Shown here one piece after another: positions 22,046 to 47,068 of a DNA stretch of 64,000 nucleotides. Both the position numbers and the translations under genes were made by a program. The notes below the pieces were generated by a model that did not search any database, was not told the DNA's origin, and saw nothing but the letters and a program-made list of their open reading frames with translations. Within the stretch, counting starts at the first letter, position 1. Every line of letters starts with the position of its first letter. The DNA is taken from the NCBI RefSeq assembly GCF_019890725.1, contig NZ_JAINZZ010000005.1, positions 124,001-188,000 of the forward strand, in the 5' to 3' direction. The stretch comes from Actinacidiphila acidipaludis. GTDB lineage: Bacteria; Actinomycetota; Actinomycetes; Streptomycetales; Streptomycetaceae.

Positions 22046-23011
22046 TCAGGCGCGGGCCTGGCGGCGGGCGAGCAGGGCCGCGCGACGCTCGTCGAAGCGC
22101 ACCGCCTGGTCGTTCAGCCCGCCCATGAAGAGCCCCAGTTCCTCCTGCGCACGCAGTCCCGTCGGGCCGAGTCCACCGCGCTCGAGCACCTTGAGATGGC
22201 GCAGCACCGGCAGCAGCACGTCGTCGTGGTGGATCCGCAGGTTGTAGACCCCTCCGACGGCGATCCGGGCCGCCGCGCGCTCGAAGCCGGGCATTCCGTG
22301 CCCCGGCATCCGGAAGTCCACCACGACGTCGCGGATGGCGACCAGGGCCAGGTCCGGAGCGAGCTCGAGCGCCGCGGCCAGGAGGTTCCGGTAGAAGACC
22401 ATGTGCAGGTTCTCGTCGGTCGCGATCCTGGCGAGCATCCGCTCGCACACCGGATCACCGGACTCGCGGCCGGTGTTGCGGTGCGAGACCCGCGTGGCCA
22501 GCTCCTGGAACGCCACGTAGGCCACCGAGTGCAGCATGCTGTGGCGGTGGTCGTGCTCGAAGCCTTCCGACATGTGCTGCATCCGGAACCGCTCCAGCTC
22601 GCACGGGTCGACCGCCCGGCTGGCCAGCAGGTAGTCGCGCATCACGATCGCGTGCCGGCCCTCCTCGGCGGTCCAGCGGTGCACCCAGGTGCCCCAGGCG
22701 CCGTCGCGGCCGAAAAGAGTGGCGATCTCGTGGTGGTAGCTCGGCAGGTTGTCCTCGGTCAGCAGGTTCACCACCAGCGAGATCCGGCCCACCTCGGAAA
22801 CCTTGGACTGCTCCGGCGCCCATGCCTCACCGCCGAGCACGCCGTCGAAGTTCCGGCCGTCGCTCCAGGGCACGTACTCGTGCGGCATCCACTCCTTGGC
22901 CACGCCCAGGTGCCGGTCGAGTTCGCCCGCCACCACCTCCTCCAGGGCGTGGAGCAGGGCCGCGTCGCTCCACGCGTCGGAGGGGGCGAGGTACGGCGAA
23001 GTGAGGGGCAC
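22046..23011 (-). CDS. acyl-ACP desaturase (ferritin-like di-iron)
   Basis: 321 residues of the stearoyl-ACP desaturase family, which introduces a double bond into acyl-ACP using O2. Iron ligand motifs are visible: T-E-D-N-L-P-S-Y-H, T-A-E-E-G-R-H and A-T-D-E-N-L-H (two E/D-x-x-H pairs). No membrane helices, as expected for the soluble class. The GTG at 23011 has AGGAG seven bases before it and gives the normal length; the in-frame ATG further out lacks a ribosome-binding site. It would adjust membrane fluidity, fitting the nearby cold-shock genes, though co-regulation is not shown. Confidence 0.88.
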   Translation of the reverse strand: MPLTSPYLAPSDAWSDAALLHALEEVVAGELDRHLGVAKEWMPHEYVPWSDGRNFDGVLGGEAWAPEQSKVSEVGRISLVVNLLTEDNLPSYHHEIATLFGRDGAWGTWVHRWTAEEGRHAIVMRDYLLASRAVDPCELERFRMQHMSEGFEHDHRHSMLHSVAYVAFQELATRVSHRNTGRESGDPVCERMLARIATDENLHMVFYRNLLAAALELAPDLALVAIRDVVVDFRMPGHGMPGFERAAARIAVGGVYNLRIHHDDVLLPVLRHLKVLERGGLGPTGLRAQEELGLFMGGLNDQAVRFDERRAALLARRQARA

Positions 23012-46708: not shown

Positions 46709-46739
46709 GAAGGCCCCCACCGCTGCGGTGGAGGCCTTC
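46709..46739 (-). terminator. terminator of the tRNA-like gene
   Basis: Arms gaaggcccccaccgc (46709-46723) and gcggtggaggccttc (46725-46739) pair with one mismatch. On the minus strand it begins six bases after the end of the tRNA-like gene. It also sits between that gene and the convergent coding region. Confidence 0.75.
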
Positions 46740-46745
46740 CGTCGG

Positions 46746-46814
46746 AGCGCCAGCCCGGACTCGAACCAAGACCTCCCGCCAGGAAGGCGGGCGTGCTGCT
46801 TGCACTACTGGCGC
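46746..46814 (-). tRNA. tRNA-Gly(UCC)-like gene with five-base D-loop
   Basis: On the minus strand 69 bases fold into a full cloverleaf. The acceptor stem GCGCCAG/CTGGCGC is perfect (7 bp). Then U8 and A9, a D-stem GTGC/GCAC with a D-loop of only AAGCA, an anticodon stem CCCGC/GCGGG with loop CTTCCTG giving anticodon UCC, a four-base variable loop, and a T-arm with loop TTCGAGT (two G-U pairs in its stem). The discriminator base is U, as in bacterial tRNA-Gly. CCA is not encoded. The missing G18/G19 would weaken the elbow. A terminator follows. The remainder of the gap to 47068 shows no gene. Confidence 0.75.
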
Positions 46815-47068
46815 GAGCGATCGGCTGCACAATGCGCAGGTCAGCCGCTCATGGAAGACGCTACACGCACCCTCTGCCACCGGCTCGTCACGTTGGGCCG
46901 TCCGGGGAGAGAGGCAGACGGGCCCGGCGCATCCGGCACATCGGGGCACGAGCGCCTGCGTGGTACCCGCTCGGCGCTTCCGTCGATACCGTGGCACCGG
47001 GGAGTCCTCACGGTGACGGCCGCGTGGGGACGGAGGCCTGGCAAGGGCGGTCAGACACGGGGGGGCTG

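Follow-up and report, generated by a model that had tools for sequence, protein, structure and literature searches.

Within the window, by which is meant the whole stretch of 64,000 nucleotides analysed, the gene at 46746–46814 is best explained as a chromosomal orphan of a non-translational tRNA-Gly family that belongs with phages and plasmids. The best-supported function of this family is that of supplying an amino acid which an enzyme with a Dam-like and a GNAT domain, comparable to Mom of phage Mu, would put on DNA; to this explanation as a whole, both parts taken jointly, we give a probability of about 0.58. Taken alone, the window copy would be a non-translational tRNA-Gly, a kind already known. 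For the wider proposal that phages carry dedicated tRNAs (mostly tRNA-Gly, in a divergent clade tRNA-Arg) whose charged forms are substrates of Dam-like/GNAT enzymes attaching amino acids to DNA bases, and that Streptomycetaceae chromosomes have kept orphan glycine RNAs for a purpose of their own, the odds appear to be even.

That the tRNA-Gly(UCC)-like gene is real, as the initial annotation held without giving a strand, is borne out by two programs, both of which call it on the minus strand and find no other tRNA in the window: ARAGORN at 46744–46814 and, as the covariance-model scoring suggested as a check, Rfam RF00005 at 46746–46814 with 49.8 bits (gathering score 29; E 1.1e-7). The unit consists of the following features.

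46746..46814, minus strand: tRNA-Gly(UCC)-like RNA with a five-base D-loop, U37, U73 and an incomplete CCA (ARAGORN, Rfam and sequence)
46815..46850, minus strand: leader hairpin directly 5' of the tRNA (30-unit alignment)
46857..46865, minus strand: TGTAGCGTC, a -10-like element, putatively of the promoter (alignment of units)
46709..46739 (about), minus strand: GC-rich terminator-like hairpin downstream of the tRNA, without a U-run (by eye)

Complete acceptor (7 bp), D- (4 bp) and anticodon (5 bp) stems, a five-base D-loop, U37 and U73 had all been described and are all seen in the sequence, together with the anticodon UCC. The cloverleaf is as good as had been claimed in its T-loop (UUCGAGU) but not in its T-stem, which has two G-U pairs (C49-G65 and U51-G63 are among its positions). 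The D-loop reads AAGCA, which lacks the G18G19 of an ordinary elongator tRNA-Gly, and in relatives it reads AACAGCA, AATTGCA or AAACGCA, i.e., AAnnGCA. Aligned by eye to these, the window loop is probably AAnnGCA minus two bases, with G18 lost and G19 kept, so that of the reported loss of both residues only the first probably stands. C32 and G38 would be able to pair, which would give six pairs and a five-base anticodon loop; C-G is found at these positions in all 30 aligned units, including that of the window. The 3' end is encoded as CCG rather than as a full CCA. The glycine identity set of bacterial tRNA-Gly (U73, G1-C72, C2-G71, C35 and C36; PMC9976931, excerpt) is present. As judged from the sequence, the idea of a tRNA-Gly variant with anti-translation features is thus supported, the identity positions for glycine being retained.

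The window genome has 64 matches to RF00005, including the normal tRNA-Gly(UCC) that the initial annotation had advised looking for (L021), a CCC copy and GCC copies; since the normal UCC gene is present in the same genome, the deviant one is an extra copy. Two further matches of this genome may be recorded here, namely a weak tRNA-like Rfam match of 48.2 bits with an abnormal T-loop (L063:136–208, G000:C2) and a second, very different tRNA-Cys(GCA) gene (L047:117–191, G000:C81). In the window itself there is also an Rfam ASdes match of 58 bits at 22596–22663 on the plus strand, a family described as a TB sRNA.

The -10-like element, the leader hairpin, the tRNA and the downstream hairpin are conserved across relatives, and the gene looks like a candidate transcription unit of its own, as had been thought; of the terminator ascribed to it, a GC-rich hairpin can be seen by eye, but a U-run is lacking. 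In 30 leader-plus-tRNA units 97.4% of the cells pair and both partners vary in 23 of 31 pairs, a number reached by none of 500 shuffles, in an alignment that was fitted to the model and is hence biased towards it. When the alignment is slid by one to three columns, 26–49% of the cells are paired. The leader helix contributes six of eight pairs changed on both sides, with 92.2% of its cells paired in the 30 units, and the acceptor pairs 1–3 are nearly fixed (29, 30 and 30 of 30), the other four being more variable. With respect to the -10-like element, the agreement on TGTA in nine units of alignment A1 is by construction, because a script had cut these units at TGTA; TGTA stands at that place in 16 of 21 other units.

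A 191-base query matched eight of 61 genomes, and the unit itself was found in three of them (G010, G021 and G004) besides the window's own; the four other matches (G018, G013, G025 and G042) were short or other tRNAs. A. rubida (G010), with three copies of the unit of which two do not differ within the stretch shown, and Streptomyces sp. ITFR-21 (G021) were both placed in the window's genus; the host, earlier taken for a Streptomyces, is a member of the Streptomycetaceae, probably Actinacidiphila. Compared with the two distinct A. rubida units, the window unit is identical in 69/69 and 68/69 tRNA positions, in 42/52 and 38/52 leader positions and in 31/45 and 30/44 positions of the 3' flank (68–81%). 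That the tRNA bases are conserved while the flanks diverge speaks against a decaying pseudogene, the outcome which had been named as refuting a functional gene. The same comparison, and the covariation of stems and leader, make it very unlikely that the gene is a neutral relic of a plasmid or prophage, even though the orphan loci have no genes in common beyond the tRNA unit, neither PF22559 nor PF22555 was found in the window genome or in A. rubida, and the copy near the end of the linear S. globisporus plasmid (L073:611–738), with A1-U72, C73 and a six-base anticodon loop, is either decayed or re-specified.

The company the unit keeps elsewhere is the reason for assigning the family to phages and plasmids. 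In Streptomyces sp. ITFR-21 it sits on plasmid pSITFR-21c (103,521 bases), where one gene is annotated as a phage minor head protein and others are terminase genes according to PHROGs. About 140 bases downstream of the unit this plasmid encodes a 455-aa protein with the domains PF22555 (DAM-like-phage1) and PF22559 (GNAT-phage-like). The tRNA unit of L004 alone matched six plasmid records and, at the setting used, no phage. Among the six Streptomyces plasmids with the RNA, the enzyme gene adjoins it on pSITFR-21c and pLBRS, and is broken by two stops on the NBC_01201 and Alt3 plasmids; the stretches taken from the plasmids of NBC_00989 and S. globisporus (L072, L073) showed none. In the Mycobacterium phages Argie, Jeon and Megabear a PF22555+PF22559 gene comes directly after an annotated tRNA-Gly, and upstream of theirs the Gordonia phages Sting, Soos and Clawz have an unannotated match to our covariance model R1, the RNA of Sting having a CCC anticodon and an abnormal T-loop. 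In annotated phages and on pSITFR-21c the Dam-like/GNAT gene is followed by a ParB-like gene.

Matches to R1 were found upstream of the enzyme gene in 20 of 20 loci (the 18 of the first viral scan plus Sting and Argie), two of them covering the tRNA part only. A more distant scan, in which 80 of 116 relatives down to 30% protein identity were kept, gave a nearby ARAGORN tRNA at 39 of the 80 viral enzyme loci: 38 are tRNA-Gly (32 tcc, 4 acc and 2 ccc) and one is a glycine-like misfit. All but one of the 39 are on the strand of the gene, and 32 lie within 400 nt upstream on the same strand. The loci with tRNA-Gly range in G+C from 0.29 to 0.72, and 13 of 20 clusters (75 stop-free proteins at 50% identity) include a linked tRNA-Gly. 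The other tRNAs typed over the same contigs are Asn, Met, Leu, Gln, Arg and one further Gly. When the 700 nt upstream were scanned for tRNA-Gly with a custom search, 25 of 80 loci gave matches, against 1 of 80 in the antisense control and none in the downstream control; the single antisense match is probably L190, whose tRNA ARAGORN puts on the minus strand. No ARAGORN tRNA was present at 41 of the 80 loci, of which three have R1 matches (L109, L111 and L120), so that at 38 loci nothing was found by ARAGORN or R1. When the whole records of the 41 were searched, 12 had any tRNA match, 11 of them above the gathering score; a tRNA-Gly was found in one record, far away from the enzyme, and three matches were untypable. 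Because of these 41 loci and of one clade without an ARAGORN tRNA nearby, a neighbouring tRNA is not obligatory.

Among 394 Streptomycetaceae genomes, 16 have PF22559, 12 have R1 (E ≤ 1e-14) and four have both, adjacent in all four (hypergeometric 7e-4, with R1 built from two of these four genomes); in a fifth genome (G826) the adjacent RNA falls below the limit. Eight of the 12 R1 genomes are without PF22559. Counts of such orphans are lower bounds, because those of G002 and G022, at about 61 bits, do not reach the limit used. A profile search for PF22559 in 396 genomes drawn from the phylum gave none, a zero that does not show absence.

What the linked RNAs keep and what they lose can be told from 35 unique sequences (36 rows before merging), made up of same-strand tRNAs within 2 kb upstream plus L190, with the downstream tRNA-Gly of L201, L202 and L203 outside the set. 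U73 is present in all 35, C35C36 in 34 plus the misfit, and GCG at positions 1–3 in 34. The D-loop GG is present in 17, T55 in 21 and the full T-loop TTCRA in 19, or perhaps 21, since the parse is mechanical and L208 and L213 look misregistered; the corresponding numbers for the 53 ordinary tRNAs of the window genome, which served as comparison set rather than phage tRNAs at large, are 50, 52 and 52. GG and TTCRA occur together in 11 of the 35 as against 49 of the 53, and four of the linked RNAs have the odd anticodon ACC. With identity positions kept and the elbow often lost, we read these sequences as selected for charging, with selection by the ribosome apparently relaxed.

The 11 RNAs that look ordinary are what would be expected if a spare phage tRNA-Gly served in translation, either decoding or replacing a host tRNA destroyed by defences, and phage tRNAs countering tRNA-cleaving defence have been described (PMC12409363; PMC13313380, both as excerpts). 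Still, the linked tRNA is of the Gly type only over a wide tree of proteins, with the Arg type in one divergent clade, and four ACC anticodons, degenerate elbows and C32-G38 in 30 of 30 units fit poorly with either use, which is why we regard a role in translation or anti-defence as improbable.

The distribution in the enzyme tree is as follows. When 76 enzymes are placed in a tree, Gly labels are scattered across the main clade with 12 changes, a number that may be too high, since L148, L150 and L160 were labelled as having none and R1 matches lie on their contigs (L109, L111 and L120). A clade of 14 tree rows, holding eight of the 16 enzyme-bearing genomes, shows no ARAGORN tRNA nearby. The enzyme clade in which tRNA-Gly was not found nearby comprises L171–L183, L198, L199 and the loci of G022, G601, G796, G805, G860, G553, G555 and G684, and four of its records, of about 20–25 kb, carry tRNAs Asn-Asn-Met clustered close to one end.

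Three rows labelled Arg stand apart in the tree with 100/100 support. Divergent enzymes of G002 and G032 have the same PF22555 and PF22559 domains, and they have three viral relatives (the viral scans for this clade gave three loci, the same three on repeat). At all five loci a tRNA-Arg(TCG)-type gene with C1-G72 and U73 lies 0.16–0.93 kb upstream (L142:7354–7430, L143:10571–10647, L226:64–140, L227:2060–2136 and L228:2071–2147); four are called Arg and one Arg/Lys, and one of the five has an altered anticodon loop. A change of isotype along with the enzyme is what one would expect of a tRNA that donates the amino acid. It should be noted, however, that the proteins of this clade are 84–90% identical to the query and that, the five being close relatives, enzyme clade and isotype change are one event and count as a single comparison.

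Actinobacteriophages are known to show tRNA-dependent lysogeny, in which a phage tRNA substitutes for a host tRNA broken by integration (PMC10865867, excerpt). As an explanation of the present family it is barely credible: the dependent cases listed in that excerpt are Lys, Ile and Leu, six of our carriers are plasmid records, the clusters at contig ends in our set are Asn-Asn-Met, and the RNA is not a normal tRNA.

The enzyme was modelled with AlphaFold2 (pLDDT 91.4 for the whole protein and 93.6 for the GNAT domain alone). The N-domain model finds E. coli Dam first (Z 13.4, 189 aligned, 4.5 Å); level with it or close behind are DpnM (12.6), T4 Dam (11.9) and unrelated methyltransferases (up to 12.9). 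With the GNAT-domain model Mom of phage Mu (8bv8) ranks second (Z 10.6, 139 aligned, 3.2 Å), tied with acetyltransferases; FemX is not among the structure matches listed, which excludes nothing, and profile searches against solved structures gave weak matches only, without bearing on the question. DNA adenine methyltransferases have the catalytic motif D/N-PP-Y, and acetyl-CoA-dependent GNAT enzymes have the loop Q/R-x-x-G-x-G/A. In 44 of 44 sequences F, Y or H occupies motif position 170, where methylases have D/N, and L-(A/S/G)-K-L (L352, K354 and L355) stands where, judging by the strands of the model, the acetyl-CoA loop would be. The 44 are those of 80 rows (A3) that remained after dropping sequences with stops (L157, L165, L193, L195 and L208), those below 400 aa and those at ≥88% identity; because of stops L118 had been omitted from A2. 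As it lacks both the D/N of methylases and the acetyl-CoA loop, the protein is unlikely to be a methylase or an acetyl-CoA enzyme.

The missing loop residues bear also on another explanation, according to which the Dam-like/GNAT protein acts on glycyl-tRNA itself, like the GNAT toxins that acetylate Gly-tRNA, the adjacent tRNA being target, decoy or antidote. The toxin TacT is specified by U73 and G71 of tRNA-Gly (PMC9976931, excerpt), and both are retained here. Against this stand the loss of the acetyl-CoA loop, the fused Dam-like domain and the tRNA-Arg-type gene in the divergent clade, and we hold such a role to be highly improbable.

Like Mom, the enzyme has a phage-borne GNAT fold, and adenine is the target proposed here. 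Unlike Mom, it has a fused Dam-like domain and often an adjacent tRNA gene, and no relation in sequence could be detected (hhalign probability 1.3% with a single Mom sequence): Mom belongs to PF25680, whereas seven Dam-like/GNAT proteins matched PF22555 and PF22559 only, neither PF25680 nor PF02388. The product of Mom is N6-carbamoylmethyl-adenine. Mom is described as acylating N6 of adenine, for instance with glycyl-CoA as donor (PMC7824862, excerpt). For the Dam-like/GNAT enzyme the gene neighbourhood suggests glycyl-tRNA as donor.

The proposed reaction sequence, aminoacyl-tRNA-dependent modification of DNA, would be as follows. The host glycyl-tRNA synthetase would charge the RNA via the identity set U73, G1-C72, C2-G71, C35 and C36, and the altered elbow together with the C32-G38 pair would keep it away from translation. 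The GNAT domain would then take the glycine off the charged RNA and transfer it to a DNA base held by the Dam-like domain, most likely to N6 of adenine. By our own chemical reasoning, a glycine amide on N6 could undergo an internal rearrangement to the Mom product. The window copy may serve visiting phages or plasmids, or else another glycyl transferase of the host.

FemABX and the GNAT aminoacyl-tRNA transferases of natural-product pathways (FemX, PacB, BD-12 Orf11) likewise have a GNAT fold and an aminoacyl-tRNA donor, the latter proposed here; they differ in having two GNAT domains (PMC12945691, excerpt) rather than one GNAT plus a Dam-like domain, and in that here DNA is the proposed acceptor. 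In cytosine hypermodification by phage CmoX/CmoY glycine also ends on phage DNA, as proposed here, but the excerpt of PMC12783734 describes an ATP-dependent ligase, free glycine and carboxymethylcytosine, with no tRNA donor. A charged tRNA as donor for DNA modification was not found described in the open-licence PMC papers searched, which leave out preprints. If the proposal is true, charged tRNA is a donor for modifying DNA; some phage tRNA genes have a role beyond translation, lysogeny and defence; a donor for the glycine-derived Mom modification is offered and made testable; and host orphan tRNAs like that of the window provide a handle on an unknown glycyl-transfer reaction.

The initial annotation had considered a different use of glycine, the supply of peptidoglycan cross-bridges. 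Wall glycine should be general in Streptomycetaceae, yet orphans were found in few of the 394 family genomes, this count being a lower bound. The window RNA resembles the non-proteinogenic tRNA-Gly of Staphylococcus aureus, which feeds FemX-type enzymes for interpeptide glycine, in that it occurs in addition to a normal tRNA-Gly(UCC), is altered at 18/19 and, in the function proposed here, has its glycine used outside translation. In S. aureus GG is changed to UU or CU, and FemX occurs in Streptomyces coelicolor (PMC4052509, excerpt), whereas the window D-loop is shortened, has lost G18 and may retain G19. Chromosomal orphans without an adjacent phage enzyme do recur, and the window genome has two FemAB loci, but both are on contigs other than that of the tRNA. 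A scan of nine neighbouring proteins (amidase, MEDS, STAS, SpoIIE-type, HATPase, one without match, luciferase-like, kinase and methyltransferase-domain) showed no wall enzyme. The S. aureus T-stem pairs A49-U65 and A51-U63 (PMC4052509, excerpt) are missing, and, unlike in S. aureus, the family has a phage and plasmid distribution, a conserved leader hairpin and, as recurrent neighbour, a phage gene of DNA-modification type. A wall function is for these reasons unlikely.

The orphans are conserved and may be of use to transient elements or to a transferase of the host. In A. rubida a weak tblastn match (37% over 92 aa, E 7e-8; L064, L065) lies about 6 kb from the tRNA; it was rejected as the enzyme since the matching part is the C-terminal tail of an atypical relative (L219) and lies outside the core of the enzyme. 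At L304 (G878) and L309 (G035) R1 matches of 86.8 and 72.2 bits were recorded, with no enzyme in the 3 kb locus and no ARAGORN call. There is, in addition, a second chromosomal type of orphan tRNA-Gly(UCC), with the D-loop AAGGAAA or AAGGCAA, the T-loop TGCAAGG and a leader. It was found, the enzyme being absent from the stretch taken, in six Streptomycetaceae genomes (L144, L145, L306, L307, L308 and L310), the hosts being G760, G763, G765 and G849 as well as G002 and G022, which have the enzyme elsewhere in the genome.
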